A DNA stretch of 64,000 nt from Candidatus Obscuribacterales bacterium. GTDB lineage: Bacteria > Cyanobacteriota > Vampirovibrionia > Obscuribacterales > Obscuribacteraceae. Position numbers and translations under genes: made by a program. The stretch's first letter is position 1. Each line of letters begins with the position of its first letter. The notes under the pieces are model-generated. The model did not search any database. It had not been told where the DNA came from and worked only from the letters and a program-made list of their open reading frames with translations. Below, in pieces: positions 3,450 to 43,368 of this stretch. Where the stretch lies: NCBI GenBank assembly GCA_020050685.1, contig JAGVKG010000041.1:1-64000 (forward strand), in the 5' to 3' direction.

Positions 3450-3515
3450 GCGAAAACAAACCACTCTTATCTAAAATACACGGTAACTACTAATGACAAT
3501 ACGGGACATGGGCAT

Positions 3516-4817: not shown

Positions 4818-4828
4818 GAGCATTTCTT

Positions 4829-10172: not shown

Positions 10173-11363
10173 ATGAAAGCAAAAGCAGAAACGAAATCAC
10201 TTATCCTGGGTACTTTAGCCTTTACCGTCGCATTCGCGATTTGGGGGCTGCTGGCCGGGCTAATGCCAATCTTGAAAAAGGAACTGGCCTTGACGGCTCA
10301 ACAAGCCAGCCTGCTTGTCGCCTTGCCAGTGGTCCTGGGATCTCTGGGCAGAATACCAGTTGGTATTCTTGCTGATCGCTTCGGCGGTAAGCGAATTTTT
10401 TCCATTCTGCTTTTTGCAATAGCACTGCCGGCAATTGCTCTGGGATTTGTCCATAGTTATCAGGGATTTTTGATCACCGCTTTGTTTCTGGGAATAGCTG
10501 GTACCAGTTTTGCTATCGGAATTACTTTTGTTTCACGCTGGTTTCCCTCAGAAAAGCAAGGAACCGTACTAGGTATTTACGGCATCGGAAATATTGGACA
10601 GTCTATTGCTGTCTTTGGCGCTCCGGCGCTTGCTCTTGCCATTGGCTTAAAGGGCGCTGTTTGGGCATTTGCGGCTTTCGCCTTGATCTATGCAATTTAC
10701 TTTGCCACAAACGCAGAAGATGCCGAATGGAAATTGCCTGCCAAAACTCTCTCGCAGTCTATGCGCATCTTTCTTGAAAAACCAATGTGTTGGGTATTGA
10801 GCCTCTTGTACTTTCAAACATTTGGTGGCTTTGTTGCATTATCAATTTATATGCCTATGTTACTTAAGGAACTCTTTGGACTTAGCCCTGCCGATGCGGG
10901 TTTACGTACCGCCCTATTTGTTGTGCTGGCCACAGCAACACGTCCACTAGGCGGTTGGCTGTCCGACTCATTTGGCGGCAGCAAAGTTATAGCAATTTCT
11001 CTTTTTGGCTTAATTCCCTGTGGGCTATTGTTGGCTTCTTCTGACTTAGGCTATTTTACTGTTGGTGCACTGGGAGCCGCATTTCTGGTCGGTTTAGGAA
11101 ATGGCGGCGTTTTTAAATTAGTGCCGCACTATTTCCCCAAGGACGCAGGAACAGTCACTGGTCTTGTTGGTGCTGCTGGTGGCATGGGCGGATTCTTTCC
11201 GCCGCTTGTGCTTGGCTGGTGCAAAGACCATATGGGTTCATTCAATCCTGGTTTTTATATGCTTGCGGTGTTTGCCGCACTATGCCTGATTACGCTTTAC
11301 CTCACGATAATCAAGCCCTCTCGCCACGAGCTTGCCCGAGAACACAAATTCTCGTCCGTATAA
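10173..11363 (+). CDS. narK: NarK-type nitrate/nitrite transporter
   Basis: Twelve-helix major facilitator protein moving nitrate in and/or nitrite out across the inner membrane. The first half has the MFS loop GILADRFGGKR. The second half has GNGGVFKLVPHYFP and GLVGAAGGMGGFFPP, the nitrate-signature segments of the NarK/NasA family. Its 396 residues match the NarK1-like short form. The ATG follows GCGAGAAAAAT, a modest ribosome site. It probably feeds the cytoplasmic nitrate site of NarG encoded 16 kb away. The downstream SLAC1-type channel begins 40 bases later and is probably co-transcribed. Confidence 0.93.
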   Translation: MKAKAETKSLILGTLAFTVAFAIWGLLAGLMPILKKELALTAQQASLLVALPVVLGSLGRIPVGILADRFGGKRIFSILLFAIALPAIALGFVHSYQGFLITALFLGIAGTSFAIGITFVSRWFPSEKQGTVLGIYGIGNIGQSIAVFGAPALALAIGLKGAVWAFAAFALIYAIYFATNAEDAEWKLPAKTLSQSMRIFLEKPMCWVLSLLYFQTFGGFVALSIYMPMLLKELFGLSPADAGLRTALFVVLATATRPLGGWLSDSFGGSKVIAISLFGLIPCGLLLASSDLGYFTVGALGAAFLVGLGNGGVFKLVPHYFPKDAGTVTGLVGAAGGMGGFFPPLVLGWCKDHMGSFNPGFYMLAVFAALCLITLYLTIIKPSRHELAREHKFSSV

Positions 11364-13729: not shown

Positions 13730-16054
13730 ATGAATAAGAAATACTGGTGGCAACCGCTATTTATTGTCCTGGCAGCGGGAATAGCCGGTGTCTTATTTAT
13801 GGGCGTTCGTACATATCAGGACGCACCGCCAATTCCCAACTATTTAACTAAATCCGGCCTGACGGTCATATCACATCAGAACATTATTGATGGGCAGCAG
13901 GTTTTCCAGAAATATGCGCTTATGGATTATGGCAGCATGTTTGGCGATGGCGCCGGCCGCGGCCCTGATTACACTGCTGATGCACTGCACAATATTGTTG
14001 TTTCCATGAAGGAGTTTTATCACAAGCAACAGTCGGATGCTTCAAATCCAAGTTTAGCTTTGGCATTAGATGCTATAACAATAAATGAAATCAAGAGCAA
14101 TTTTTATAATCCGGCAAGTGGTGAAGTCTTGCTTTCTGATGCACAAGTTTATGCCTATGAAAAGCTAGTCACCCATTACAAAAGCTTGTTTTCCACGGGC
14201 GAGCATGAATCGATGCGTCCCAGACACTACATCGTTAGTTCAGAGGACTTGCGCAATCTCAGTTCTTTCTTTTTTTGGGGAGCCTGGGTATGCAGTAGCA
14301 AACGCCCTGGCTTCACCTACAGCTATACGCACAACTGGCCCTATGATGAGCAGGCAGGCAATTTGCCTACAGCGCCAGTCATCTTCTGGAGTTTCGTCGG
14401 CTGTCTGGGGCTATTGGTCGGACTGGGGGCTGTTCTTTATATGCGCGGGCGATTAGACAAACTAATTAGTCTTTCAACCTCGGCAGACCCAGCTCTTGAA
14501 CCTCCTCCTACCATAACATCAGTGGCCGAATTTTTACCTTCACCTACACAAGTTGTTTCATACTGGTTTTTTGCCGCCGCCGCAATCGTTTTTCTCTTGC
14601 AGATATTTGCCGGCGTGCTGACAATCCATGATTTTGTCGGCCTAACCAAATATTTTGGATTTGACACAGCTCCTCTATTGCCGGTGACAATCACCCGCAG
14701 CTGGCACCTCCAACTTTCCCTTTTCTGGATCACGGCTTGCTGGATGGGTGCTTCAATTTTTGTTCTTCCTATGATGGCCGGCTACGAGCCCAAAGCACAG
14801 CTTGCCTGGGTAAAAGGATTGTTCATTCTGCTTGTCGTCACGGTAATTGGCTCCACGGTCGGCATTTTTGCCGGTCCGAAAAATTGGCTTGGACAATGGT
14901 GGCACTTGTTGGGTAATCAGGGATGGGAATTTGTTGAATTAGGTAAGCTCTGGCAATATCTTTTGTTTGCCTGCTTCATCCTTTGGGGAATTATTGTTTG
15001 GCGCGGCATTAGGCCATTGTTTGCCAATCGAGAGCCGCTGGACTTGCCAAAGTGGTTATTCTACACAATCGTATCAATTAATGTACTCTTTTTATCCGGT
15101 TTTGTTGCCACTCCCAACACAAATTTTGTGATCGCTGATTTTTGGCGTTGGTGTGTCATACACATGTGGGTGGAGGCATTCTTTGAGGTTTTTACTACGG
15201 CAATTATTGCTTACTTCTTGTATCACATGGGACTTGTAGCTAAGGGATCTGCGTGTCGAATCGTCTATTTGTCATGCATTTTATTTCTTGGCTCCGGACT
15301 TTTAGGTATTGCTCACAACTTTTATTGGAATGCAAAACCTGTCGTAACACTAGCGGTGGGCAGTGTATTCTCTACACTACAGGTGGTGCCTCTCGTACTG
15401 TTGTCGCTCGAAGCCTGGCGTTTTCGTCAACTACCAAGTCTGACCTTCAAAAAGCATGGGAAGCCTGACAATTTTGGTCAAACACAGTCATTTTTATTTC
15501 TGCTTGCTGTCAATTTCTGGAACTTCATGGGTGCTGGTGTCTTTGGCTTCATCATCAATTTACCAATCATCAATTACTTTGAGCATGGAACTTACTTGAC
15601 GGTCAACCATGGGCACGCAGCCCTTATGGGCGTCTATGGTAATCTCTCGCTGGCAGCACTGCTCTTTTGCAGTCGCTACCTGATTATGCAAGGCCGTTGG
15701 AATGAAAAAATACTCAACTGTGCATTTTGGTCTCTCAATATTGGACTTGCTTTGATGGTAGCGCTAGATCTTTTTCCGGCAGGAATAATGCAATTTCAAG
15801 CCGTCCTTGATCACGGACTATGGTATGCACGCTCGCAAGAGTTTATTCTCGGCATACCCTTTCAAACCCTAACCTGGATGCGTGCAATTGGTGGCTACAT
15901 ATTCGCGTTGGGAGGAGTGATACCACTTGTTTGGTTTGTTTTAAGCCGAAGCCTATCTATTAAGCAAGCCGGATTACAAACTATGCCGGCTGAAGACGGC
16001 TTCGAATGCAAGCCTATGGCCTGCGGTCTTGTGGTCGAGCCGGACAATTCATAG
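13730..16054 (+). CDS. nod: nitric oxide dismutase (NOD)-like member of the quinol NO reductase family
   Basis: Heme-copper superfamily membrane protein of 774 residues with the qNOR layout. It has an N-terminal helix, then a periplasmic heme-less cytochrome-c-like domain to about residue 210 (including SAFF/KRPG-type segments and YSYTHNWPYD), then the helices of the catalytic unit. The heme-ligand segment VNHGHAALMG (His627, His629) and HMWVE (His478, Glu482) are intact. Canonical NO reductases then have a His-His pair at the FeB iron; here it is His529-Asn530 (AHNFYW). The Glu of the usual ALEPLP segment is Gln551 (TLQVVP). The quinol-site Glu and Phe four and eight residues after His326 appear to be Ser330 and Ile334. 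From memory of the family, these substitutions mark the NO dismutase candidates of Methylomirabilis (2 NO to N2 + O2). Plain NO reduction remains possible. It overlaps hxlR by 41 bases at the 3' end. Confidence 0.78.
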   Translation: MNKKYWWQPLFIVLAAGIAGVLFMGVRTYQDAPPIPNYLTKSGLTVISHQNIIDGQQVFQKYALMDYGSMFGDGAGRGPDYTADALHNIVVSMKEFYHKQQSDASNPSLALALDAITINEIKSNFYNPASGEVLLSDAQVYAYEKLVTHYKSLFSTGEHESMRPRHYIVSSEDLRNLSSFFFWGAWVCSSKRPGFTYSYTHNWPYDEQAGNLPTAPVIFWSFVGCLGLLVGLGAVLYMRGRLDKLISLSTSADPALEPPPTITSVAEFLPSPTQVVSYWFFAAAAIVFLLQIFAGVLTIHDFVGLTKYFGFDTAPLLPVTITRSWHLQLSLFWITACWMGASIFVLPMMAGYEPKAQLAWVKGLFILLVVTVIGSTVGIFAGPKNWLGQWWHLLGNQGWEFVELGKLWQYLLFACFILWGIIVWRGIRPLFANREPLDLPKWLFYTIVSINVLFLSGFVATPNTNFVIADFWRWCVIHMWVEAFFEVFTTAIIAYFLYHMGLVAKGSACRIVYLSCILFLGSGLLGIAHNFYWNAKPVVTLAVGSVFSTLQVVPLVLLSLEAWRFRQLPSLTFKKHGKPDNFGQTQSFLFLLAVNFWNFMGAGVFGFIINLPIINYFEHGTYLTVNHGHAALMGVYGNLSLAALLFCSRYLIMQGRWNEKILNCAFWSLNIGLALMVALDLFPAGIMQFQAVLDHGLWYARSQEFILGIPFQTLTWMRAIGGYIFALGGVIPLVWFVLSRSLSIKQAGLQTMPAEDGFECKPMACGLVVEPDNS

Positions 16055-16615: not shown

Positions 16616-18076
16616 ATGAGTAGAGAACAAAGATCTTGGGCTGAGCCTTATAAGATAAAGGTTGTTGAGCCAATTAGGATGACCACACGCGAAAGGCGCA
16701 ACAAAGCCCTAGAAGAAGCCCATTTCAATTCCTTTCTTCTTCGCTCGGAAGACATTTATATAGATCTTTTGACCGATAGTGGCACGTCAGCAATGTCCGA
16801 CTATCAATGGGCCGGCATGATGATGGGCGATGAAGCCTACGCTGGTTCCAAAAATTTCTATAATCTTCAGGACAAAATAGAAAAATATTATGGCTATCCT
16901 TATGTAGTGCCGACGCATCAAGGACGAGGTGCTGAGCACCTTTTGGCCCAATTGCTGATTAAGCCAGGAGATGTAATTCCCGGAAACATGTACTTTACGA
17001 CAACCAAGGTACATCAAGAGCTTGCTGGTGGAACATTCGTCGATGTAATTATTGAACAAGCCCATGATCCTACCAGCCTGCATCCTTTTAAGGGAAATAT
17101 TGATATCGGCAAACTCAAGGATTTGATTTACAAGGTCGGAGCGGCCAGGATTCCTTATGTCAATCTCCAAGCTTGCGTGAATATGGCAGGTGGTCAACCC
17201 TTTTCCTTAGCTAACCTCAAAGAATTACGACAATTGTGCGGACAGTTTGGCATAAAAATAATTCTTGATGCCACTCGAGCCATGGAAAATGCTTGGTTCA
17301 TAAAGAGACGAGAACCAGGGCAATCAAAGCGCTCTTGCGCTGAGATTCTCTATGAGATTTGCTCTCTCACGGATGGTTGTATCATGTCCGGCAAAAAGGA
17401 CTTGCTGGTGAACATGGGCGGCTTTCTTGCCTTGCGAGATGAAAAGATTTACGGGAAAGCCTGCGAGCTGGTTGTAATTTATGAAGGACTGCACACTTAT
17501 GGTGGCATGTCCGGACGCGATATGGAAGCTATGGCTCGCGGCATTGAAGAAGCAATCCAAGACGATCATTTGAGAGCTCGAATTGGGCAGGTACAGTATT
17601 TAGGACAGAAGCTGTTAGATGCGAACATTCCCATTGTTGAACCAATTGGTGGTCACGCAGTTTATCTTGATGCCAACCGCTTTCTTTCGCATATTCCTCA
17701 AAATGAATTTCCAGCCCAAGCATTAACTTGCGCACTGTATCTTGATTTCGGCATAAGAACAATGGAAAGAGGCCTGGTTTCAGCAGGGCGCAATAGCAAA
17801 ACTGGACAACATCATCCTAGTCAGCTCGAACTTGTCAGGCTAACCATTCCTCGCCGAGTCTACACGCAAGCACATATGGATGTCGTAGCGGAAACAACCA
17901 TTGCCTGCCATCACGCCCGTAAATCAATCGCTGGGCTCCGTATGACATATGAGCCCGACAAACTGCGTTTCTTTCAAGCTCACTTTCAACCAATTGGTTC
18001 TTGGACCAATTCGTTTTCTTCTGAATATCCGATCTTGCAAGACCCGTTGTTAGAGCTCGCAAACACTATTTTCTAA
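16616..18076 (+). CDS. tpl: tyrosine phenol-lyase
   Basis: PLP enzyme cleaving tyrosine to phenol, pyruvate and ammonia. Discriminating residues are all of the phenol-lyase type: Thr128 (FTTT), Met383 and Arg385 (TMERG) and Phe452 (LRFF), matching Thr124, Met379, Arg381 and Phe448 of the Citrobacter enzyme with a constant offset of 4. The PLP lysine is in MSGKKD. The 486 residues include a tail of about 25 residues not seen in the family. The ATG follows AGGAAGGAGGG, the best ribosome site in the region. It is divergent from hxlR, and the TSUP transporter gene starts 16 bases after its stop. Confidence 0.95.
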   Translation: MSREQRSWAEPYKIKVVEPIRMTTRERRNKALEEAHFNSFLLRSEDIYIDLLTDSGTSAMSDYQWAGMMMGDEAYAGSKNFYNLQDKIEKYYGYPYVVPTHQGRGAEHLLAQLLIKPGDVIPGNMYFTTTKVHQELAGGTFVDVIIEQAHDPTSLHPFKGNIDIGKLKDLIYKVGAARIPYVNLQACVNMAGGQPFSLANLKELRQLCGQFGIKIILDATRAMENAWFIKRREPGQSKRSCAEILYEICSLTDGCIMSGKKDLLVNMGGFLALRDEKIYGKACELVVIYEGLHTYGGMSGRDMEAMARGIEEAIQDDHLRARIGQVQYLGQKLLDANIPIVEPIGGHAVYLDANRFLSHIPQNEFPAQALTCALYLDFGIRTMERGLVSAGRNSKTGQHHPSQLELVRLTIPRRVYTQAHMDVVAETTIACHHARKSIAGLRMTYEPDKLRFFQAHFQPIGSWTNSFSSEYPILQDPLLELANTIF

Positions 18077-20905: not shown

Positions 20906-22045
20906 TCAATTTCCTTTTTTGCCATCGCTTTGTCCAGCCTCGCTCATCGATGGATCAAAATAACTACAAAGAGTATCTTCGGCCAGATAATCACCAGACT
21001 CGCCGTAAGCCCTCGCCCGCGAACCACCACAGACAGACTTATAGCGGCAGGCACCACATTTACCTGTTAAAAGTCGTGGATCTCTTAAAGACTTAAACAA
21101 TTCATGTTCTCGATAAATTGATACCACATTGTCTTGGCGAACATTACCTGCCTTTAGTGGCAGGAAACCGCTTGGATAAATATCACCTGTGTCCGAAATG
21201 AATATTAGGCCCTTGCCGTCATTTACCGACTGATAAGAGCGCAATGCCCCTATGCTCATAGAGGGATTGACTGACAACAAAGGCTGATTGCCATTTGTCA
21301 TGTTGCCTTCAGCATATTGTTCAATTAAGACTCGCCGAAAATGTGGTGCGGCTGTTGATTTGACATCAAAAAGTCCACGTTCTGCCAAAAGTGTCATCTT
21401 TTTCAGCACCGACTCGGCCTGATTAGCTGTTATTTGCATGTCTTTGCTGGCACGACCGGTTACCACAAGGAAAAAGACACCCCAAAGCACGGCACCGAGT
21501 CTTTCCACCAACAAAGCCATATCGTCAAAGCGGTCAATATTATTGCGACAAATTGTTGTATTAATCTGCACTGGCAAATCATACTTTTTCGCCCAGCCAA
21601 CTATATTCAGACTCCAAGCAAAAGACCCTTGTACTCGCCGAAAATCATCATGCATTTGAGCATCTGGTCCGTCTAAACTAATTGCTAAACGGGCGATGCC
21701 TGCTTCTTTTAGTTGCCGGACTATATCTTCATTGACAGAGGGCGTACCACTTGGCGTCATTGCCACCGTCAGTCCAAGCTCTCGTGCGCAAGAAATTATT
21801 TCAAAGATGTCTTTCCGCTGTATCGGATCGCCACCGGTTAAAACAATTAATGGCTTGCCGAAAGCTCGTAGCTGATTGAGTAGCACTCTGGCCTCATCGG
21901 TGGACAATTCATCCGAATTTGGCCTTCTAATGGCCTTTGCCCGACAGTGCCTGCAAGCTAACGGGCATGCTTTTGTCAATTCCCAAAGCACCAAATATGG
22001 TGCTTGGTTAAAATCGAGCTTAGGAATAGGAGGGCAGACAGACAT
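20906..22045 (-). CDS. radical SAM / SPASM protein in the nar operon
   Basis: Radical SAM enzyme of 379 residues. The 4Fe-4S motif is CPLACRHC (Cys27, 31, 34), followed by LTGGDPIQR and a C-terminal SPASM region with CGACRYKSVCGG and DTLCSYF for auxiliary clusters. The opening LVLWELTKACPLACRHC resembles heme-modifying (NirJ/AhbC/AhbD-like) and peptide-maturing branches, and I cannot choose between them. It starts exactly at the base after the preceding cytochrome gene's stop and is part of the nar transcript. A role in maturing a heme or cofactor for the respiratory module is an inference. Confidence 0.85.
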   Translation of the reverse strand: MSVCPPIPKLDFNQAPYLVLWELTKACPLACRHCRAKAIRRPNSDELSTDEARVLLNQLRAFGKPLIVLTGGDPIQRKDIFEIISCARELGLTVAMTPSGTPSVNEDIVRQLKEAGIARLAISLDGPDAQMHDDFRRVQGSFAWSLNIVGWAKKYDLPVQINTTICRNNIDRFDDMALLVERLGAVLWGVFFLVVTGRASKDMQITANQAESVLKKMTLLAERGLFDVKSTAAPHFRRVLIEQYAEGNMTNGNQPLLSVNPSMSIGALRSYQSVNDGKGLIFISDTGDIYPSGFLPLKAGNVRQDNVVSIYREHELFKSLRDPRLLTGKCGACRYKSVCGGSRARAYGESGDYLAEDTLCSYFDPSMSEAGQSDGKKGN

Positions 22046-22660
22046 TTACTTTTTCTTTTCCATACTACTAGACAGAGCGGCAATCACTTTATTGAATCCA
22101 TAAAGTAATAAACCAATAGACAATACAGCAAGTGCTATGTGCACTCTATAGCGTGAGAAATTATGCACAAATAAGAGCCAAGGATCACCATGAGAGGCAT
22201 TGAGTGGATCGGTGCCATCCAGAAATTCACGCGAATCAGCAATGCCGTCGCCATCAAGATCGTCTTTGCCGCCCAGCGCTGTGGCAAGCTTTTCTGGGTC
22301 GCTGCGATACTGCAATACATTCTTCATGCCAATTTTTTTTACAATTGCATTGCCAAATTTATTGAGAATCGGATTATCTACATCCTGACCAGGTTCAAAA
22401 GCAGCTCGCGCTTCATTTAATTGTTTAAGTTTTGCTTCAGTTAATGACCCGATTTGGCCGGCATCATTGCCTGTTGGCCCAGAGTCGTTTGTATGGCACA
22501 TCGAACAATTGGCAGTACGTCCTGAATGTTTCTCGACAAACTGCTGGTACTCAGGAAATGCCATTGCACCTGAGCCTGAGAAAAGCGCCATTGAAGCTGT
22601 CGCTATCAAGGCAGTTGCTAGAAAAACGTTCTTTGATTGTAGACTTAGCGGCAAACTCAT
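22046..22660 (-). CDS. membrane-anchored monoheme cytochrome c with calcium-binding repeat
   Basis: 204-residue exported protein: N-terminal signal/anchor (VFLATALIATASMALFSGSG), one c-heme motif CSMCH at 52-56, an EF-hand/thrombospondin-type calcium loop DLDGDGIADSREF at about 134-146, and a C-terminal membrane helix at about 173-195. It lies directly behind the cytochrome b gene and is the probable electron acceptor of the Rieske/cytochrome b unit. The combination of a c-heme with a calcium loop is unusual. Confidence 0.85.
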   Translation of the reverse strand: MSLPLSLQSKNVFLATALIATASMALFSGSGAMAFPEYQQFVEKHSGRTANCSMCHTNDSGPTGNDAGQIGSLTEAKLKQLNEARAAFEPGQDVDNPILNKFGNAIVKKIGMKNVLQYRSDPEKLATALGGKDDLDGDGIADSREFLDGTDPLNASHGDPWLLFVHNFSRYRVHIALAVLSIGLLLYGFNKVIAALSSSMEKKK

Positions 22661-23767
22661 TTAGCCTCCACCTTTGAAAATCTCGTAAATGTTATGTCCG
22701 AATATTGTCATAATTATTAGATAAAGTGTGCCAAGCAAAGCAAGAAACCCTAAAGTTGTACGGCTTGTATCTCTAAAAATCCAAGGCGTTAAGAACAAGC
22801 CAGCCACCAATAGGTTGGAAAGAAGTAGTATCAACCAAAATGGTAGAAGCTCGAGCGGATAATAAATAAAGTAAAAATACCACTCTGGCTTTATGCCTGG
22901 CGGGGTAGCACCAAGCGCGTTATAGGGCTCAAGCAAAGGGAAGGAAACAAACGAATCGAAAGGCAAACACAAAGCTAAAACAAATAAAATTAAAAATGCA
23001 ACGCCCCAAACTGAGAGATCTCGAAGAATAAATAAAGGAAAAAACTTTTCGCTTTTCTGTGCTGCCCGATCAATCCCCTGGCTCATACCATGGAGCTGCA
23101 CTTGCAATAGATGAATGCCAAGCACGGCAAATAGTGCAAGCGGCAATAGAACAACGTGCATTGCGTAAAATCGCCCAAGAGTTGCTTGACCGACACTAGC
23201 CTCTCCTTGGAATGTCTCTTTTAAAATACGAGGCAGATCCGCTATAGCTCCAGGCAAATATGTACCGATTAATTCCACTGATTGCAGACCGACTTTGGTG
23301 GCATTAACAGCAATTTGATTCCAGGGAAGAAGATAACCAGTAAAGCCGAACCCATAAGTTATTAAAAGCAAGCAAACACCAGCCACCCAGGTAATTTCCC
23401 GTGGACGGTCAAAGGCCTTCATGGCAAATGTGGTCAAAAGGTGCACAACAGTAAAAAAGATCATCAAAGACGACGACCAGGCGTGCATATTCCTAATCAA
23501 AGCGCCACAGCTGACATATTTTGTTATGTACTCAACCGACAAGTTGGCATCACTGACGGTCGGTTGATAGTAAAACAAAAGAAAGAGGCCGGTAACAACT
23601 TGAACAAAAAGAAACAATAAGGCCAGTCCACCTGTGTAATATCCCCAGGTCATCTTATGAATCGGCACTTCCTTCTTTTCAATCATCGAATGAAAGTTAA
23701 GCTTGTCAACGGGAAAGCGCTCGGATACAAAAGCAACTACATCGTTTAACCCGGATATGGGACTCAT
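22661..23767 (-). CDS. cytochrome b of a b6f-like quinol complex
   Basis: Membrane cytochrome b of 368 residues oxidising quinol together with the Rieske domain encoded upstream. The heme ligands are His95/His109 and His204/His219. The 15-residue spacing of the second pair is the b6f-type spacing (14 in mitochondrial bc1). KPEWYFYF at about 293-300 is the quinol-site PEWY, so this one chain covers b6 plus most of subunit IV. The Cys that binds the extra heme in true b6 (YCLGG) is Tyr-Tyr-Thr here, so that heme is probably absent. It overlaps the NarI-Rieske gene by 4 bases. Confidence 0.92.
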   Translation of the reverse strand: MSPISGLNDVVAFVSERFPVDKLNFHSMIEKKEVPIHKMTWGYYTGGLALLFLFVQVVTGLFLLFYYQPTVSDANLSVEYITKYVSCGALIRNMHAWSSSLMIFFTVVHLLTTFAMKAFDRPREITWVAGVCLLLITYGFGFTGYLLPWNQIAVNATKVGLQSVELIGTYLPGAIADLPRILKETFQGEASVGQATLGRFYAMHVVLLPLALFAVLGIHLLQVQLHGMSQGIDRAAQKSEKFFPLFILRDLSVWGVAFLILFVLALCLPFDSFVSFPLLEPYNALGATPPGIKPEWYFYFIYYPLELLPFWLILLLSNLLVAGLFLTPWIFRDTSRTTLGFLALLGTLYLIIMTIFGHNIYEIFKGGG

Positions 23768-25083
23768 GCTTTGCTCTCCTCTGCCAGGTGCTTAGCCAAA
23801 AATACCGAATAACTTTCCGCATTACCAGCAGGGGCCGTACCGATTATCTTGCCATTGGCACTCTTATGTGCCACCATTTTGCCGCTTTCATCCATGACTG
23901 CCCAAGGCAAATGAGGCAATGGCTCTTTTGCTGGTGCACCAGCGTTTGGCACCCCGGTTGCAATGTCAAAATAAGAAAGGTGGCAGGGGCACAGAATTCT
24001 GCCTTGGCTATCAACTTGATTGAGCACAGTACAACCTAAATGCGTGCACTTGGCAGAAATTAAATTAGGCAGATTGTTGCCATCCAGAAAAGCCAAGGCC
24101 GGACACATGGCAAAGTCAATAAAATACTTGCCCTCTTTTGCTTGCAACTCGGAAAGCTTGGCCACAAAAATATAGTCACTAGTCTGTCTTTCCAGCTCAA
24201 GTTTCTTTTCATTAGCAGTTGCCTCCAAGCGCTTCACCCTCGTTCCCATAATTTCTGCTTCCTCTTTTGGGCTTAAGCGTGGACCAAAGAAAAAACGAAA
24301 CACTTTATCAAGCGCACCGACGGAAAGCAAAGCTCCACCGACAAATAATGCGGCCATTCCTTTTATAAAATCACGTCTGGCTTCATCATCAGAGAGAAAT
24401 GCGGTGGCCTCATGGTGGCGCGGATTAGTCCAAACAACTTTCTGTGGTGGGCGGAATAAATATTCCAATGGCACGGTAAAAATGTGAATCAAGCGTGAAA
24501 ATGGGATAAGCAAGATCAAAAGCCAAGCGCCAACAATGTGTGCCTTCATCAGTGGTGGCAAATCAGCAACAAAGGAAACATCCGGCTGCAGCGTCGCAAG
24601 ACTCCAAACATAAGGAGTTGCCGTTGTAGTTGCCCAAACGGCGCCCCAATGATATTGCAGAGCCACAATCATGCCAATCACAATCTGTCCAAGCAAAAGA
24701 GTAAGCACCACTAGATCCATGACGGACGTTACTGCTTGAATCCGGGCAGAGGTTAAGCGTCGCCAAAAAAGTACCATGAGGCCGACGACGCTCAGACAAG
24801 CCAAGCCGATTCCGGCTGACTCAATTACTAAAAGAATAGTCGGGTTTGCTAGCAAGCTCCGCCAAAGCTCCGGACAAAACAAGGCTATTAAGTGTCCGGC
24901 CAAAATCAGGCCGATGCCAATATGCCAGGGAAGCGAGCCCCAGAGGAGTTTTCTGCTTTCTAAAAACTGTGACGATAGTGCCGATAAACCAAAAGCCTGA
25001 GTTCTGATGCGCCAGACTGAACCAACAATGCAGACGACAATTGCCACATAAGGCAATGCAATTAGTAACAACGAATCAATCAT
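23764..25083 (-). CDS. narI: NarI-Rieske fusion (nitrate reductase gamma subunit plus Rieske Fe-S domain)
   Basis: A single 439-residue chain. Residues 1-210 are a NarI-like diheme membrane subunit with His54, His64, His182 and His200 in the positions of the E. coli ligands (56, 66, 187, 205). Then comes a linker with RRDFIKG and a sixth helix (about 240-263), a coiled stretch, and a C-terminal Rieske domain with CTHLGC (Cys346, His348, Cys351) and CPCH (Cys365, His368). I start at the ATG at 25083; the frame runs 7 codons further upstream from a TTG. The fusion puts the quinol oxidase of Nar and the Rieske centre of the bc module in one protein. Confidence 0.9.
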   Translation of the reverse strand: MIDSLLLIALPYVAIVVCIVGSVWRIRTQAFGLSALSSQFLESRKLLWGSLPWHIGIGLILAGHLIALFCPELWRSLLANPTILLVIESAGIGLACLSVVGLMVLFWRRLTSARIQAVTSVMDLVVLTLLLGQIVIGMIVALQYHWGAVWATTTATPYVWSLATLQPDVSFVADLPPLMKAHIVGAWLLILLIPFSRLIHIFTVPLEYLFRPPQKVVWTNPRHHEATAFLSDDEARRDFIKGMAALFVGGALLSVGALDKVFRFFFGPRLSPKEEAEIMGTRVKRLEATANEKKLELERQTSDYIFVAKLSELQAKEGKYFIDFAMCPALAFLDGNNLPNLISAKCTHLGCTVLNQVDSQGRILCPCHLSYFDIATGVPNAGAPAKEPLPHLPWAVMDESGKMVAHKSANGKIIGTAPAGNAESYSVFLAKHLAEESKA

Positions 25084-25112: not shown

Positions 25113-25658
25113 TCAGTACCGTCCTTCAATATCCGTTTGTAGCACCACGTAAATTGCTTGCATCAAATGAGAAAATGGATTGGCTCTATCCTTCATACTC
25201 TCGGCCATTTGTTGAACAGGCTCAAGCAAACAAAAGCGGACAAAATCAGTCCTCTCATCGCCGTTCAACGACGAAGCAAAACGCAATAGTACAGCTAAAT
25301 GATCAGGAAGCTCACCTTCAACCTTGAAATTGTATTTGTCATATAGATCGACAAGCTTGGCCATGAAGTCACCACGATCGTAACTTTCATTGCCATGCAC
25401 GTAAGAGCTCACGTAAGGCAAGCAAACAGGAGCAAGATCAAATGTACGGGTGAATGTTTCTTCCATTTCAGCCTGAGAGAATTTTGTCACTGCCTCTCGA
25501 AATTCTTCCACGAGCTTAGAAGCCGGTAGACATTCTGCTTGCAAGAGTCGGCAGCCCGTGTCAATGTCGTTGAGCCACTTAGTGCCGGCTTGGGGATATT
25601 CAAGCAGCTTGGAAAGAGATGAGTAAACAATATTGCTAATGTGAGTTTGATTAGTCAT
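25113..25658 (-). CDS. narJ: nitrate reductase assembly chaperone NarJ
   Basis: Cytosolic chaperone of the TorD/NarJ family that inserts the molybdenum cofactor into NarG and holds NarGH until membrane docking. 181 residues, all-helical, with the family core FTRTFDLAPVCLPYVSSYVHG and YDRGDFMAKLVDLY. The ATG overlaps the narH stop (ATGA), so it is translationally coupled. Confidence 0.9.
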   Translation of the reverse strand: MTNQTHISNIVYSSLSKLLEYPQAGTKWLNDIDTGCRLLQAECLPASKLVEEFREAVTKFSQAEMEETFTRTFDLAPVCLPYVSSYVHGNESYDRGDFMAKLVDLYDKYNFKVEGELPDHLAVLLRFASSLNGDERTDFVRFCLLEPVQQMAESMKDRANPFSHLMQAIYVVLQTDIEGRY

Positions 25659-27160
25659 GGTCCCCTGTGTGGTACCTCATCACAACCAAAACCTTCGCAA
25701 CCTTTGCAGACTTCCGGACTGCAGGTCGGGGACATTGCCTCTTCCCTTTGAATCGGTGGCAAAACAAATCGTTCGTAAGGTGTTGCCAGAGTGGTCAAGG
25801 AATAAATTTCTTCTGCTTGTGTCGGACTCAAATCGGCCTCGCGCATTATCTTGTTCACCAGCTTAATATCAAAATCACCAAGTTCCAATGACCTCTTGTA
25901 ATGACGCACCGCCATAATTTTCTTTAGAGATGCCTCTATCAGCTCCACATTGCCGGCGCTGAACAGTTTGGCCAAATATTTTACCGGCACGCGTGCATTT
26001 TCTAAACCGGAAAAGAAATTTTCGCTCAGATGTTCATACTTGCCATTTTCAGATTTCCCCATGACAGGCAAGAGCGGTGGTACATAAAAAAGCATGGGCA
26101 TGGTGCGATATTCAATATGCAATGGTAGGGCAAGCTTCCATTCCATGACATACTTCCAAACTGGTGACTTCTGGGCAGCAAATATGAACTCATCCGATAC
26201 ACCATTTTTCTTGGCTGCGGCAATTACCTTCTCATCAAATGGATTGCAAATCGCTCCTCTTTGCGCCTCAACCAGTGCTTCGTCCGGTACCTTCATGGCG
26301 TCAGCTACACGCTCTGCATCATAAAGCAATACACCCAAATAACGAATTCTGCCTACGCAAGATTGAAAACAAGCAGGTGGCTGACCGGTTTCAAGCCGTG
26401 GATAGCAAAGTATGCACTTTTCCGATTTTCCCGTTTTCCAGTTGTAGTATATTTTTTTATACGGACAGGCAGCCACACAGGCTCTCCAGCCCCGGCACAG
26501 ATCCTGGTTGATAAGCACAATGCCGTCTTCACCACGCTTATAGAGGGCACCGGACGGACAAGAGGCAACACAACTGGGATTAGCACAATGGTTGCACATA
26601 CGCGGCAAATAAAACATGGAGATTTGCTCAATTTCAAACAATTGCGCGCGTTCTTCATCGCTTAGCGCATCAAGGTTTATGTCATTAGCTGCATACTGAT
26701 TGGATCCGGAAAGATCATCGTCCCAGTTTGGTCCGGCCTGAATATCCATCGGCTCGCCGGTTATTTGTGAAACAGGTATGGCCGTCGGTTGATCATTGCC
26801 TGCCGGTGAGTCAAACAAATCCTGATACTTATATGTCCATGGTTCATAGTAATCTTCCAGACCCGGTTGATTAGGATTGTAAAAAAGTTTGATAAAGGCG
26901 TCCCATTTGTTTTGACTTAAAAGCTCCAGATCTTTCTTGCCATTACCATTGCCGTTGACTTTCCAACCGCCCTTATAATGTTTTTGATCTTCCCAGAGCA
27001 CAGGGAAACCTGTACCGGGCTTGGTTTCAACATTGTTCCACCACATGTATTCGGTACCTTGGCGATCGGTCCAGATATTTTTACAAGCAATAGAGCAAGT
27101 GTGGCAGCCAATACACTTATCCAGGTGAAAAACCATTGAAACTTGAGCTCTAACGTCCAT
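25655..27160 (-). CDS. narH: nitrate reductase beta subunit NarH
   Basis: Iron-sulfur subunit of 501 residues carrying three 4Fe-4S clusters and one 3Fe-4S cluster between NarI and NarG. Cys groups: CIGCHTCSIACKNIW near the N-terminus, MCNHCANPSCVASCPSGAL, CRGWRACVAACPYKK (Trp replacing a Cys, the mark of the 3Fe-4S site) and CILCYPR followed by CFQSCVGRIRYLG. The C-terminus adds another Cys-rich end (CSPEVCKGCEGFGCDEV) that is not part of the cluster set. The start follows GGAGGT. Confidence 0.96.
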   Translation of the reverse strand: MDVRAQVSMVFHLDKCIGCHTCSIACKNIWTDRQGTEYMWWNNVETKPGTGFPVLWEDQKHYKGGWKVNGNGNGKKDLELLSQNKWDAFIKLFYNPNQPGLEDYYEPWTYKYQDLFDSPAGNDQPTAIPVSQITGEPMDIQAGPNWDDDLSGSNQYAANDINLDALSDEERAQLFEIEQISMFYLPRMCNHCANPSCVASCPSGALYKRGEDGIVLINQDLCRGWRACVAACPYKKIYYNWKTGKSEKCILCYPRLETGQPPACFQSCVGRIRYLGVLLYDAERVADAMKVPDEALVEAQRGAICNPFDEKVIAAAKKNGVSDEFIFAAQKSPVWKYVMEWKLALPLHIEYRTMPMLFYVPPLLPVMGKSENGKYEHLSENFFSGLENARVPVKYLAKLFSAGNVELIEASLKKIMAVRHYKRSLELGDFDIKLVNKIMREADLSPTQAEEIYSLTTLATPYERFVLPPIQREEAMSPTCSPEVCKGCEGFGCDEVPHRGP

Positions 27161-27181: not shown

Positions 27182-30100
27182 TCACCAAACAAGCTTGTTC
27201 AGCTTCTTTACCAAAACATAGGTGTCGCGATTTACACCGGTCGGACCCCAATAGTTAAAGCCGTAGGAAAACTGCCCATAGCCGCCAATCATCAATAACG
27301 GCTTTAGGCGCACTCGCGTTAGGCTATTATGTCCGCCGGCCCGCCGCATATTTCGCTCGGGTGACTTAGGAACGGACAAGGTACGTTCAGGCGAGTGATA
27401 AATAAAGCAACTGCCCCGGGGGATGCGAGCGCTAACATTAGCACGCGTACAGACCACGCCATGATCGTTATATATCTCCAACCAGTCATTGTCGGCAATG
27501 CCGATCAGGTCGGCATCCTTATCATTGATCCAAATCGGATCCACACCACGAGACATGGTCTTCATGCGTAGTGTATCGCCAAAAGTTGAGTGAATCTGCC
27601 ATTTTCCATGTGGTGTCAAGTAATTAAGCACGAGTCCATTACCATCGGCTTCAGTTTGTACCAGGTCGCCTGTCGTTTGCGCATCCGGACGTGGTTTAAA
27701 AGTTGGCAGGTGCTCACCATAGGCAATATAAGCTTCATGATCGAAATAAAGATGTTGGCGCCCAGTTAAGGTTCGCCAAGGAATATTTTCCTCCACATTT
27801 TGACAGTAGGCCGAATAGGTCCTGCCATTTTCCGTGATACCAGTCCAAAACGGCGACGTGAGCACCCGACGTGGCTGAGCCACCAAGTCGCCGAAACGAT
27901 AACGCACCGAACGGTTGCCACAAGCCAGATGAGTATGATCGAGGCCGGTCTTCACCGATTCGGCCGCGAAGGCTCGGTAGGCCATTTCACCATTTGTTTC
28001 TGCCGCAAAGGCCAAAATTACTTCCGCCACTTGCTTGTCTTCTGCCAATGACGGATAAGTGCCACCACCCCATTCCTCACGAGGCTGCTCCTTTAAGAAC
28101 TGGTCATAGGCATCATCTACATCATAATGCGTGCCATGCACAGCCAGTCCGTTGTTGCGGAAGTTGGGACCAAGCGAAATAAAACGATTGTACAAATTGA
28201 CGTAATCTCGGGCCACCACCTTCATGTTAGCCATGGTCTTACCCGGAATTGGCTCACATTCTCCCCTAGACCAATCTTTAACGCTTGGCTGGGCAATTTC
28301 GCCCGGGGTGTCGTGCATCAAAGGCGAAGTAACAATGTCCTTAACCGGAGTCGGCAAATGCTTTTCGGCCAGACGCGATGTCCTGAGAGCAATACCCTTA
28401 AAAATATCCCAATCGCTTTTCGCCTCCCAACATGGTGTAACGGCTGCCTGCAAGGGGTGAATAAAAGTATGCAAATCGGTGCTGCTTAAGTCGTTCTTTT
28501 CATAGTAGGTAGCTGCGGGTAAAACGATATCGGAATAAAGTGCCGAAGTATCCATGCGGAAATTTAGATCGACAATCAAATCCAGCTTGCCTAAATCAAC
28601 TTTGTCATGCCAGGTAATTTCTTTTACGGCATCGGAGGCAACCTCCTCGGAAATCGTATTGTTATGTGTACCAAGGTAATGCTTGAGAAAGTATTCATGC
28701 CCCTTGGCTGATGACATCAGGGCATTTCCTCGCCAGATATACCAAATGCGAGGAAAACATTCTGGCGCATCCGGATCCTCCATTGAGAATTTCAGTTTCT
28801 TGTCTTTCAGTTGCTGAACGATATGTGAGACAACCTTTTCGTCCGTGTTTGCCCCATCTCCCTCTGCTTGGCGCACCACCTCCAGGTTGTTTTGATTGAA
28901 CTGCGGATAACAAGGCAGCCAGCCGTTACGCACTGCCATGACTTGCTTATCTGCCGTATGGCCGGAAGACATTTTATGGCTGTCATCGGATACGGGACAC
29001 ATTTCGGCAAATTGCGGATCGTAACGCCACTGATCAGAATGAATATAGTGAAACGATGGTGCATTTTGCAATCTCGGTGGTCCACCCCAATCACCGCCGA
29101 AAGCAATGGGGGCCCATGAAGCAATTGGCGCTAATTTCTCTTGGCCGACATAGTGATTCAAACCGCCACCATTAACACCAACGCAACCACAAAATATCAG
29201 CGCGTTAATCGCTGCTCTGTAAATTAAATTATTGTGATACCAGTGATTAACGCCAGCACCAATAATGATTGAGCATTTCCCGTTAGTAGAAATGGCTGTT
29301 TGGGCCCACTCCCTAGCAAAATCAAGAACCACAGATGCTTTAATGCCGGTAAACTTTTCCTGCCAGGCCGGCGTAAACGGCATTGTGTCGTCATCATAAC
29401 CTGCCGGCCATTCACCAGCCAATCCATTGTTGACACCATACTGCGCCAACAAAAGCTCCATAGCTGTTGTCACCAGTTGCGGTCCATTTACGGTTTGAAT
29501 TGTGCGCACCGGAATCGAGCGAACCAAAAGTTTCTCGCCTGTCCCCTCCGAAAAATCATTGAATTCAACTTTGGCCGTTTCATCCGATCTATCAGCAAGA
29601 AACAAGACGGGATCAATAGGTTCGTTATTAATACTTTCATTGAGGACAAGATTCCATTCTCCCTTTTTGCTTTGCCAGCGGTGTCCGATGGTGCCCTTGG
29701 GCATCTTCAGTTGATTGGACCGAGAGTCAATAACGAACATTTTCCATTCAGCGTTTTCAATGTCTTTTGTCTCTTTTATATCACTTGCTCTCAACAGCTT
29801 GCCCGGCCGTAAATTGCCATTTTCCAGTTTGTCCAGTGCGACCACAAATGGTGCATCACTGTATTTTTTCATGTACTCGACAAAGTATGGTACTTGTTTG
29901 TCCTTATGGAATTCCTTCAAAATCACGTGTCCAACAGACATCCAGAAGGCACCATCTTGCCCTTGATTAATTGGCACCCATTCATCTGCAATCTTTGAGG
30001 CCTGGGAAAAGTCAGGCGAAAATACGACGACCTTGGTACCGCGATGCCGAGCTTCGACGAGAAAGTGCGCATCAGGCGTACGTGTCATCAGTACATTTGA

Positions 30101-30814
30101 GCCAACCACGGCTACATATTTTGAATAGTACCAATCAGCACTTTCAGCTACATCGGTTTGCTCACCCCATACTTCCGGCGATGCTGGTGGCAAGTCGCAA
30201 TACCAATCATAGAAGGAGAGACAGACTCCACCCATCAAAGACAAAAATCGCGCGCCCGATGCATAGCTAACCATGGACATGGCAGGAATTGGTGAGAATC
30301 CCACAATTCGATCCGGTCCGTACTTTTGAATCGTATGAATATTGGAAGCAGCCATAAGCTCATTAACTTCATCCCAGGAGGCTCGGCGGAACCCACCCTT
30401 GCCGCGCGCCAGCTGATACTGTTTACGCTTTTCCGGATCATTGACTATCGATTTCCAAGCCGACACGGGATCGTTGCCATTTGTTATTTTAGCTTGACGC
30501 CACAAATCAATAAGTGTCCCCCTTACATACGGGTACTTAACCCTCAGTGGACTATATACATACCAAGAACAGGAAATACCACGTTGGCAGCCACGTGGTT
30601 CATGTGGAGGAATTTCCTTATTGAAGATTGGATAATCGAGAGCCTGCATTTCCCAGGTGATAATGCCCTTCTTAACGTAGACATTCCAACTACACGAGCC
30701 TGTACAGTTGACACCATGGGTAGAGCGCACAATCTTGTCTGACGACCATCGGTTACGATAGAAGTCTTCCCATTGACGTTGCTTGGGCGCAAATATGTCC
30801 TTAATCCACGACAT
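27182..30814 (-). CDS. narG: respiratory nitrate reductase alpha subunit NarG
   Basis: Molybdenum bis-MGD catalytic subunit, 1210 residues, reducing nitrate to nitrite. The FS0 cluster ligands His33, Cys37, Cys41 and Cys76 have exactly the E. coli spacing (4, 4, 35), and the Mo ligand Asp207 lies in [12 protein letters not shown]. There is no twin-arginine signal, so it faces the cytoplasm as in E. coli. The start follows GAGGAGG. It is the second gene of the operon, 4 bases after the cytochrome c gene. Reduction of nitrite to NO as a side reaction is known for this enzyme class and could be an NO source here. Confidence 0.97.
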
Positions 30815-30818
30815 CTTG

Positions 30819-31631
30819 CTACCTCCTCTTCAGTTTGGCGCGTACGCCCCTATTCCGATTTCTATAGAAAAACCCGATTGCCGCCAAGGAAAGCAAGGCT
30901 CCGACAAATCCCAGTTCACCTACCGGTGGATTATTGGAAACGCTTTTTTCTTTCTTGCTCTCCTTAAAGTATGCAACCAGATCAAGCGCCTCTTGACGAG
31001 TGACCGGTTGATCCTTATAAACCGCTTGCATAACCTTAAAATTCGTTTGTTCACAAGCAGACGTCAGCGAAGCTTGCCCCATCTTGTCGTAAATATTTGT
31101 CAAGTCTGGTGCAAGAGTTCCCCCACTGCCACCAACCTGGTGGCAGGACATACAAGCCATACCACCATTTTTAAATTGCTCTTGCCCCCAAAACAATTTC
31201 TTGCCAAGTTCAGAAGAGGCAATCTCGACTTTTCCACCTTGTGGAGCCTTTATTTCCTCTAGGGCCTTGAGCCTATCCGGCGCTTTCTGATCCTTGAGAA
31301 ACTGGACCAGTCCTTTAATATCATTCTCTTTCAGCTCACCAACATACTTCTGCATGCGGCCCACTGCTTGGCTAATATCGCTAGTCTCCCAAGGTAAAAC
31401 TTCAACAAGATCCGGGCCAACCATTTTGCCCTTGCCAATTGAATGGCAGCCACTACATTTTTCACTAAATAATTTGGCTACATGATCAGGCTTGTCCTGG
31501 CTGGCTCCAGGTGTGATTTTGCTTTCTTCCGCCCAGGCCGGCAAATGCAATACTGAGATAAAAGCTAAGAGGCAAGCACTTGTGCTTAGCTGCCAAATCT
31601 TGGTCCGACAAAAATAATATGCAGTAGACAT
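30819..31631 (-). CDS. membrane-anchored diheme cytochrome c, first gene of the nar operon
   Basis: 270-residue exported protein with an N-terminal signal, two c-heme motifs (CSGCH at 59-63 and CMSCH at 160-164) in two cytochrome-c domains, and a C-terminal helix (about 241-257) followed by a basic tail. It resembles the NarC-type cytochromes that head nar operons in some non-proteobacteria. It probably carries electrons between the Rieske/cytochrome b unit and oxidases or the NO enzyme. The recurring dyad lies 155 bases upstream. Confidence 0.9.
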
Positions 31632-31807: not shown

Positions 31808-32025
31808 ACCAGACACTCTTGCCAAGTGCCTTGCCGCATTTATCGCCAAGCCGGAACGCCTTTGCCGGCCCGATCATGCTTTGGCAGAATCCAGCTAATC
31901 AGAGCAAAATCGAAAGTACTTGGAAACAATCCGAAGGCAATCTACCTATTTTGGCTGAGAAACTCTGTTATCCAATCTGCGATAATGCCACCTAATTTGG
32001 AGACTCTACAAAGGAATGGTTGCAT

Positions 32026-33552
32026 ATGCATTCCGACAAAAAACTTGTAACGAAAAGGCTGTTAGTCCTCCTATCAATATTCATTGTTAGTTTGCAATTC
32101 AGCATCTTGCCTGCCCTTTCGGAAACAAATAGCTTAGAAGCGCACGCAACTTTTGAGAATCAAACAGCCCGGAGGCTTGAAGAGCTAAGTACTCAAATTG
32201 GCAAAAAGGAAAATGAGCTTCTGCGCTTAAACACTAACTTTCGTACTGAATGCACAAAAGTAAGCAAGTGGAAACCTTGGCGTCTATTCGTCTACAACCT
32301 CGGTGCATCTGGTTGTTCCAATGCAGGCATCACAAGCATTTCAGCCACACGTTGGCACTATTGGACTCACCCCAAGGACATGCCCCGATCTACTGCAGCC
32401 GCAGGTCCTATTTTGCTGCTTATTGGGCACTGCATAACACTAGGCGGGGCAGTGGCGGAAAGTACGCTTGACGTGGTCAATGATTACAAAGTGCGAAAAA
32501 AAGGATTAGACATAAAGACAACCCACAAAAAGGTCCTTGAGTTGAAACTCGATCTAGACAAATTGCTTGCCGAGCGTGAAACGATCTTGGCCAATGCCCA
32601 GGATCTAACGCCGCAACAAAAAGAACTGGCGAGGGCTGAGGGCCTGGTCCTAAAAGATGTACGTGATTTATCACTGGCCGAATATGCACAATTTTATGTG
32701 CGAGCAAACAAATATTTTGCCAGTCGTGATGCTAATGCGCTCATGGCCATTGCTAGTGCTTCAACCGGGGGCTTTCAAGGTTCGCTCTTGGGTATAATTT
32801 CCGCCTTTCAAAGGAGACCGCGGCTGGTTGGTCCAGGCGGTTTGGGCTTCGTTATCTCCGGAGCTACAATTGTCGCCACGCCACCAACAGCCAAATTAGC
32901 TGCAACAATCAAGGGGCGTTTTGCTCGCAAGCAAATGATCGCGGAACTAGATAACTTAACTACCAAGTCTGTTGCCCAGCTTGATGCCGACAGGTTGAAG
33001 CTCGAGCAGTTGCTTGCTAGTACAAGTATGACCGATCGTGCCGCTCTTGCGAATATGGAAAGACGCTCAGCGGCCTATGGAAAGCATAGCGCCTTATTCA
33101 CTGCCCAAAATCAGATCAATGTTAAAGAAAAGGCCCTCGCCAATAAGGAATTTTTAGAAAGGATGCTTTTTGCCACATCAATTGGTGGTACCAAAATGAG
33201 CTGGGGCATAAATTTAGCCAATGCTGGATTTCTCTATCGACCAAAATATTATTTCAAAGGCAGTACAAGTAAAGTTACAACCATAGTGGCGGGCAAATCA
33301 GTAACAAAAGTAGTCGGAAAGCTCTCACTTGCTTCCAATCCTCAACCGGCAATGGATTTCACGAGAAGAGTTGCGGTTGGTGCAACTACTTATATTCCCG
33401 GCACCGGTTTGTGGATTTTTGATACTCTACAAAACCGTGTGCGTGGTATACGGCGCAGCCGGGCTCTTGCCACTCAAGGTCAATTACCTACAGCACTTTT
33501 ACAAGAGCGTTTTGACAGGGTGCAAGAAATTGATGATGTCTTCAATTATTAG
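32026..33552 (+). CDS. exported/membrane protein of unknown function
   Basis: 508 residues, not recognised. It has an N-terminal signal (LLVLLSIFIVSLQFSILPA), a coiled-coil stretch (about 40-70), a first hydrophobic segment at about 120-150 (AAAGPILLLIGHCITLGGAVA), a long helical region with many Lys/Leu heptads (about 150-205), a Gly-rich hydrophobic segment (about 235-285), another coiled coil (about 300-370) and a basic C-terminus. I start at the ATG at 32026, 10 bases after AAGGA; a TTG two codons earlier is less well spaced. A structural or envelope role is possible. No catalytic motif is visible. Confidence 0.7.
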   Translation: MHSDKKLVTKRLLVLLSIFIVSLQFSILPALSETNSLEAHATFENQTARRLEELSTQIGKKENELLRLNTNFRTECTKVSKWKPWRLFVYNLGASGCSNAGITSISATRWHYWTHPKDMPRSTAAAGPILLLIGHCITLGGAVAESTLDVVNDYKVRKKGLDIKTTHKKVLELKLDLDKLLAERETILANAQDLTPQQKELARAEGLVLKDVRDLSLAEYAQFYVRANKYFASRDANALMAIASASTGGFQGSLLGIISAFQRRPRLVGPGGLGFVISGATIVATPPTAKLAATIKGRFARKQMIAELDNLTTKSVAQLDADRLKLEQLLASTSMTDRAALANMERRSAAYGKHSALFTAQNQINVKEKALANKEFLERMLFATSIGGTKMSWGINLANAGFLYRPKYYFKGSTSKVTTIVAGKSVTKVVGKLSLASNPQPAMDFTRRVAVGATTYIPGTGLWIFDTLQNRVRGIRRSRALATQGQLPTALLQERFDRVQEIDDVFNY

Positions 33553-41933: not shown

Positions 41934-41982
41934 CGAACATTTACCGGAAACTCAGATCAATCGATATAAATTGAGGCGTAAA

Positions 41983-42270
41983 ATGTGCTTGGCAATCCCC
42001 GGACAAGTCGAACAACTCTTTCAAAAAGACAATTTAAAAATGGCCAAAGTTAATTTTGGTGGCATCAAACAAAATGTCTGTATTGAATACACGCCAAACG
42101 TTGAAGTCAGCGAATTTGTTTTGGTCCACGTCGGATTTGCCCTCAGCATAATCGATGAGGCAGAGGCAAAGCGCTCCTATGAAGCCTTAAGCTTATCCGG
42201 CGAACTAAATGAATTTACTGAATCTATTGCTTCCTCCGGAAAAGTAGGAGTGCTCGATGAAGTTTCTTGA
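41983..42270 (+). CDS. hypC: HypC hydrogenase maturation chaperone
   Basis: 95-residue chaperone that carries the Fe(CN)2CO unit with HypD and binds the hydrogenase large subunit. The N-terminal MCLAIPGQ with Cys2 is diagnostic. I start at the ATG at 41983 behind TTGAGG; the frame is open 28 codons further upstream into hypF with no homology. It overlaps hypD by 14 bases. Confidence 0.93.
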
Positions 42271-43357: not shown

Positions 43358-43368
43358 TTGGGAGAGAA

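Follow-up and report, generated by a model that had tools for sequence, protein, structure and literature searches.

A fused NarI–Rieske protein in Obscuribacterales nar operons: a predicted link between nitrate reductase and a bc complex

Can a nitrate reductase that faces the cytoplasm be driven by a cytochrome bc complex, and so double its energy yield? The question has stood since Nar1 of Streptomyces was shown to depend on bcc-aa3: Falke et al. found parts of bcc-aa3 co-purifying with Nar1 and proposed an electron route via QcrC that would raise the yield per 2 electrons from 2 H+ to 4 (PMC7931247; this and the other papers are cited here for the passages that treat these systems). In Streptomyces the two partners are only loosely joined, which makes the proposal difficult to test. 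A locus of Candidatus Obscuribacterales bacterium raises the same question in covalent form. Within the 64,000-nucleotide stretch analysed here (assembly GCA_020050685.1, contig JAGVKG010000041.1, positions 1 to 64,000; hereafter the window), one gene of a nar operon encodes NarI, the haem b subunit of nitrate reductase, fused to a Rieske [2Fe-2S] protein, and thus offers a system of fixed stoichiometry.

The fusion gene and its conservation

The narI::Rieske gene lies on the minus strand, 25083-23764, and encodes one uninterrupted chain of 439 residues from an ATG; a TTG 21 bases farther 5' is a possible alternative start. The initial annotation of the window had these coordinates right and gave no strand. 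The parts of the product are as follows (Tat, twin-arginine translocation):

23764..25083, minus strand: narI::Rieske fusion gene, 439 aa (open frame and profile matches; fusion present in 17 further genomes)
24430..25083, minus strand: NarI half, residues 1-218, five helices, haem ligands His54, His64, His182 and His200 (PF02665, E 1.3e-60; fold of 1q16_C)
24379..24429, minus strand: predicted cytoplasmic linker, residues 219-235, 17 residues (positive-inside counts; 17-20 residues in all 18 fused proteins)
24289..24378, minus strand: RRDFIKG twin-arginine motif and sixth transmembrane helix, residues 236-265, a predicted Tat-inserted signal-anchor (RR in 17 of 18, hydropathy, TatC in the genome)
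23869..24168, minus strand: Rieske [2Fe-2S] core, residues 306-405, with CTHLGC at 346-351 and CPCH at 365-368 (PF00355; ligands in 18 of 18)

Both halves are recognised by family profiles. The Pfam matches to Nitrate_red_gam (residues 4-218, 205 bits) and Rieske (residues 307-391, E 3.6e-6) each exceed the curated cut-off, and at 114 the score for the NCBIfam narI equivalog TIGR00351 passes its cut-off of 106. In sequence, E. coli NarI from the PDB matches the NarI half (E 4e-19), and the Thermus Rieske protein 1nyk and actinobacterial QcrA match the Rieske half. A fold search of the PDB with an AlphaFold model of the fusion returned NarI as the best match (E. coli 1q16_C, TMt 0.76) and also recovered several Rieske proteins. 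The model was built from 11 rows and, with a mean predicted local distance difference test score (pLDDT) of 69 and a predicted template modelling score of 0.41 for the single chain, is too weak to give haem-to-[2Fe-2S] distances. The four haem ligands, the RRDFIKG motif with its sixth helix and the complete Rieske site all stand where the initial annotation had placed them.

The fusion occurs in 18 distinct genomes, 15 from the source genome's own family and 3 from a second family (f7) of the same class; the relatives are on record as Candidatus Obscuribacterales, Melainabacteria or Cyanobacteria metagenome-assembled genomes, including Candidatus Obscuribacter phosphatis EBPR_351. A protein search of 60 relatives, own genome included, found it at full length in 12. 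When 53 genomes of the order were searched for the NarI family, 16 gave matches and 15 of these had a fused copy; the other (G061), where NarI is cut at the contig end to a 210-aa frame, was scored neither fused nor unfused. Two of the 15 (G032 and G015) hold an unfused NarI alongside the fused copy. In the source genome (4.2 Mb in 70 contigs) the fused copy is the sole NarI detected, with one match in this search. A set of 386 genomes of the phylum yielded fused NarI in the source genome and in three of the second family (G043, G305 and G417), and unfused NarI in G119, G197 and G085, the other matches being partial. A contig scan with one query protein and six 8-residue patterns recovered 11 loci, all in close relatives; it missed the f7 copies (46-50% identical), so it does not show absence elsewhere. 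Searched by tblastn, 72,556 plasmids gave 146 matching records and none that covers 80% of the chain. The initial annotation held that the fusion may be rare; within the phylum, to which the genome searches were largely confined, it is no singleton but has become fixed in two families.

Both halves are under constraint. In an alignment of the 18 fused proteins the four haem histidines are invariant, as are the Rieske ligands Cys346, His348, Cys365 and His368 and the disulphide pair Cys351 and Cys367. Mean pairwise identity is 61% in the NarI core, 64% in the Rieske core and 29% in the linker, which is 18 residues long in 16 of the 18, and no stop interrupts the frame in any genome. Because 18 genomes hold the fusion in an open frame with its haem and [2Fe-2S] ligands invariant, it is confirmed as real and an assembly error is excluded, including the sequencing error removing a stop codon that the initial annotation had named as what would refute it. 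That the chain is an artificial chimera, or arose by reading through a stop that was lost, has nothing beyond the rare architecture in its favour and is already refuted by the same counts together with the preserved linker length and the constraint on both halves, and we give it virtually no credence. The idea that the NarI half is a pseudodomain was likewise ruled out, every haem ligand being retained.

The operon and its relatives

The fusion stands within a nearly gapless run of minus-strand genes, in the order dihaem cytochrome c, narG, narH, narJ, narI::Rieske, cytochrome b, monohaem cytochrome c, TIGR04053, a KAS-III-like gene and a TauE-family gene:

30819..31631, minus strand: dihaem cytochrome c with a C-terminal helix, NarC-like (PF00034, PF13442; two CxxCH)
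27182..30814, minus strand: narG, with no twin-arginine signal visible at its N-terminus (TIGR01580, 1555 bits)
25655..27160, minus strand: narH (TIGR01660, 626 bits)
25113..25658, minus strand: narJ chaperone (PF02613)
22661..23767, minus strand: cytochrome b, 368 aa, with four bis-His ligands and the PEWY Qo motif (PF00033, PF13631)
22046..22660, minus strand: membrane-anchored monohaem cytochrome c with one CxxCH and a C-terminal helix, predicted c1/f-like subunit (gene position, motif)
20906..22045, minus strand: radical SAM/SPASM protein TIGR04053, near the haem b synthase AhbD (next gene of the tight run; role uncertain)

The start of the cytochrome b gene overlaps the stop of the fusion by 4 bases, and in every one of the 18 fused loci this gene lies directly 3' of the fusion, though in 2 of them the contig ends within it. 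Since its haem histidines (pairs 95/109 and 204/219) and PEWY are retained, the latter in 17 of 18 with the eighteenth gene cut by a contig end, chemistry at both a Qo and a Qi site is plausible. Monohaem c follows cytochrome b in 16 loci, the 2 remaining contigs stopping before it, and dihaem c precedes narG in 14, the sequence beginning inside or after narG in the other 4. The gene order from dihaem c through narGHJ and the fusion to monohaem c is thus constant in the fused genomes. A plasmid-borne nar operon of Thermus (L062) has the identical order up to narI and is opened by a homologue of the dihaem c, as the initial annotation's Thermus-type background would have it. The Rieske, cytochrome b and monohaem c trio in turn occurs as a separate module twice in the source genome (contig C34, L066, 8061-10427; contig C27, L067, 7590-9930) and also in relatives. 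The fusion therefore joins the final gene of a narCGHJI operon of the Thermus type with the leading gene of a complete Rieske/cytochrome b/c module.

A relative of the same class (G059, L069) joins the two sets of subunits in a different and independent way. There a small Rieske gene, a gene for a 637-aa protein (3462-5375), narG, narH, narJ and an unfused narI follow one another. The 637-aa protein is a cytochrome b with PEWY that carries a C-terminal dihaem c, residues 331-624 aligning with residues 14-267 of the source operon's NarC-like protein (E 1.9e-26). That one set of Nar and bc subunits is connected by two distinct fusions is strong indirect evidence that its members act in one complex.

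Phylogenies place the fused NarI copies in one clade (support 97/99) within a 23-row group (96/96) that also holds the NarI proteins of Thermus, G059, G119 and G197, while the unfused, proteobacterial-type NarI proteins of G032 and G015 lie outside it. The Rieske and cytochrome b trees, for which the 12 standalone Rieske rows were the better matches of the 60-relative search and from which, for cytochrome b, G068 was left out (sequence cut to 135 aa), show standalone copies (G021b, G031b, C34, G004b and G036-38) nested among fused ones, with the f7 fused copies outside that nest (99/97 in both). Trees with all fused copies in one clade are not rejected either (p-AU 0.14 for Rieske, 0.07 for cytochrome b). 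If the nesting is right, the standalone bc modules derive from the fused one.

Membrane assembly and the path of electrons

The distribution of charge indicates how the chain may sit in the membrane. Across the 18 fused proteins lysines plus arginines average 2.7 and 3.2 for the two inner loops and 6.2 for the segment between NarI and helix 6, as against 0.4 and 0.9 for the outer loops, from which we infer, by the positive-inside rule, that NarI is N-out and that its C-terminus and the RR motif are cytoplasmic. NarG is also expected inside the cell, as it has no visible Tat signal. The twin arginine is RR in 17 of the 18 and KR in one, F239 is present in all, and 2-4 positive charges follow helix 6. 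When the six helices are ranked by Kyte-Doolittle hydropathy, which is relied on here in preference to crude helix free-energy values, the lowest place falls to helix 6 in 14 proteins, to helix 2 in three and to helix 5 in one. A TatC gene is present in the source genome.

In actinobacterial QcrA, a last helix of low hydropathy and the positive charges after it bring about release from Sec and uptake by Tat (PMC5449189). The fusion resembles such dual Sec/Tat proteins in its internal RR motif, weakly hydrophobic last helix, positive charges and cofactor domain; it differs in that QcrA has two preceding helices and is N-in, whereas the fusion has five and is predicted N-out. By analogy, the NarI part would be inserted by Sec with its C-terminus left in the cytoplasm, and the RR-x-F motif of the linker would then let Tat take over helix 6 together with the folded Rieske domain. 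The [2Fe-2S] cluster would thereby come to lie on the outer side, next to the Qo site of the cytochrome b that the overlapping downstream gene encodes. The same study screened N-out proteins of completed genomes and names a YkuE-like family from that screen. Five Sec helices followed by a Tat helix with its cofactor domain may represent a topology new to Sec/Tat co-assembly.

We favour the view, at a probability of a little under 0.6, that the fusion physically holds together an obligate nitrate respirasome, a NarCGHI-bc supercomplex with a Rieske-fed NarI and a Q-cycle. NarGHI and the dihaem NarC would be tied, via NarI::Rieske, to a complete menaquinol:cytochrome c complex of Rieske protein, cytochrome b and monohaem c. 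A supercomplex of this kind, which the initial annotation had already suggested, is well supported by genomics: to the covalent link come a gene order strictly kept across 18 genomes and the second fusion in G059, both of which strengthen the case. Menaquinol, for which the source genome encodes two PF02621 proteins (MqnA/MqnD-type, futalosine menaquinone pathway), would be oxidised at the Qo site of the bc part. One electron would pass through bL and bH in a Q-cycle; the other would travel from the Rieske centre over c haems to the outer and then the inner b haem of NarI, and on through NarH to NarG. Electron flow from Rieske to NarI is likely, and might be direct or run via the NarC-like cytochrome or monohaem c. 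With nitrate reduced in the cytoplasm, the net yield would be about 4 H+ per 2 electrons against 2. More tentatively, NarI could be solely a Rieske-fed inlet for electrons and not a quinol oxidase, the Q-cycle being obligatory in a C2-symmetric (NarCGHI)2-(bc)2 assembly from which the order's standalone complex III modules possibly split.

What NarI itself does turns on its quinol site. We take Lys86 of E. coli NarI to have a role in that site, and the titles of PDB entries among the fold matches include E. coli NarI K86A and a Q-site inhibitor complex. At this position the 18 fused proteins have Leu in 8 (the source protein among them), Tyr in 5, Met in 2, Ala in 2 and Gln in 1, compared with Tyr in 9, Lys in 7 and Glu in 1 of 17 unfused NarI proteins, a convenience set of 11 plasmid matches taken from the 146 and 6 from the phylum. 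Gly65 is Gly in 15 of the 17 unfused proteins, whereas 11 of the 18 fused ones have Ala here, 6 have Gly and 1 has Trp. This suggests that the quinol site is relaxed in the source genome's family, though not in every fused protein. The initial description of the NarI half as a quinol-oxidising subunit fits the 5 fused proteins with Tyr and is put in question by the 13 that, unlike NarGHI, have neither Lys nor Tyr. The second NarI of G032 (C17, L070) and of G015 (C30, L071) is of the conventional narGHJI type and has Lys where E. coli has Lys86, so that each of these genomes supplies its own natural control.

Two further genes of the window bear on the direction of electron flow:

13730..16054, plus strand: qNOR-type nitric oxide reductase, NorB with a cytochrome c-like domain (PF00115, PF22085)
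10173..11363, plus strand: major facilitator superfamily (MFS) transporter, taken as NarK-like from homologues beside other nar loci (PF07690)

Several points weigh against the respirasome. The evidence for it is genome sequence, largely from metagenome assemblies, and the AlphaFold model, with its mean pLDDT of 69, is silent on complexes. His66, a haem ligand too, is retained in all 18 fused proteins, and the Tyr-bearing ones include all three of f7, so that NarI may oxidise quinol directly. The NarC-like cytochrome of Thermus is thought to carry electrons away from NarI, opposite to the direction proposed here (PMC7694296), and tethering could serve co-assembly alone. On such an account NarI oxidises menaquinol itself, the bc module is a separate path to periplasmic acceptors, and the fusion fixes the stoichiometry of two quinol oxidases and co-localises them. 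The retention of all four haem ligands speaks for it, as does Tyr at the Lys86 position in fused as in unfused NarI, and Thermus NarC is viewed as an outlet to nitrite and nitric oxide reduction (PMC7694296). It sits poorly with the nitric oxide reductase of the window, which is of the quinol type and needs no cytochrome c, and with a search of the source genome for cytochrome cd1, which gave weak partial matches only (one of them, in a 6972-aa frame, exceeded the cut-off only as a sum that included the matches beside it). The quinol-site residues have moreover drifted in 13 of the 18 fused NarI proteins, and with two standalone Rieske/cytochrome b/c modules in the genome a third in the nar operon would be redundant. 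We regard a mere tether as a serious if unlikely alternative.

Electrons might also run outward, with NarGH oxidising nitrite and delivering electrons through NarI to c haems and an oxidase while the bc part works in reverse; haem-copper oxidase superfamily genes do occur in the source genome, outside the 64-kb window. Electrons from nitrite, at about +420 mV, would however need an input of energy to enter a Rieske centre or bc complex of the menaquinol type, and the nearby nitric oxide reductase and MFS transporter form a denitrification context that favours nitrate reduction. The literature points both ways. A cytoplasmic nitrite oxidoreductase has been annotated in a Melainabacteria genome whose genes are similarly arranged, with petB and narK after an nxr-like cluster (Matheus Carnevali et al. 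2019, PMC6349859), and Nitrobacter runs a Thermus-like cluster in the nitrite-oxidising direction (PMC7694296), whereas nitrate respiration was predicted for O. phosphatis (Soo et al. 2014, PMC4040986, whose main text does not contain the word Rieske). The outward direction appears improbable on balance.

Other genes of the window lie beside the nar region or farther off. Homologues of the TIGR04053 gene stand near the nar locus in two relatives (L072 and L037), and haem supply is a possible role. A 510-aa protein at 32020-33552 has no Pfam match; homologues with 34-62% identity are found near the fused nar operon at eight loci (L033, L034, L036, L037, L038, L040, L041 and L075). A beta-eliminating lyase, tryptophanase/tyrosine phenol-lyase-like, adjoins the nar region at 16616-18073 and has homologues near nar in L072 and L034. 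A hydrogenase maturation cluster at 39564-45056 comprises HypF, HypD and a HypE-like (AIRS) gene, and H2 might be an electron donor for nitrate respiration.

Relation to known systems and implications

The fusion is a variant of known machinery. With NarGHI of the E. coli type and narCGHJI of Thermus the source operon shares the narG-H-J-I order, a cytoplasmic-type NarG and four NarI haem histidines, and with Thermus also the NarC-like gene upstream and a NarI of the same tree group; beyond NarGHI, it adds the C-terminal Tat helix and Rieske domain and runs on into cytochrome b and monohaem c. Rieske/cytochrome b complexes (menaquinol:cytochrome c reductase, b6f-like) have the same Rieske ligands, cytochrome b histidines, PEWY and anchored c subunit. 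Unlike in those complexes, the Rieske subunit is the C-terminal domain of NarI and the Tat motif is internal instead of N-terminal; compared with b6, the alignment shows no cysteine at the Cys35 position of the source cytochrome b.

In haloarchaea and Methanoperedens, Rieske and cytochrome b are likewise co-encoded or functionally linked with nar, and antimycin A sensitivity of the haloarchaeal nitrate reductase is cited; these enzymes differ in facing outward, and the passages concerned mention no NarI fusion (PMC4683180). Periplasmic nitrate reduction in Campylobacter is reported to depend on Qcr (PMC6195509). Nar1 of Streptomyces comes close to what we propose, since Q-cycle-coupled nitrate reduction through the NarI haems has been put forward and the two complexes co-purify (PMC7931247), but its link is non-covalent and its partner the housekeeping bcc-aa3, whereas the fusion is covalent and lies within the nar operon. 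Our literature search met no description of NarI fused to Rieske; most subscription papers lay outside it, so this is not proof of absence.

The covalent NarI–Rieske pair makes the bioenergetic question raised by Streptomyces directly testable. It also bears on the origin of aerobic and nitrate respiration in the non-photosynthetic sister lineages of cyanobacteria. If nitrate reductase and bc complex are built in these organisms as one machine, more energy could be conserved from nitrate than by the textbook enzyme.

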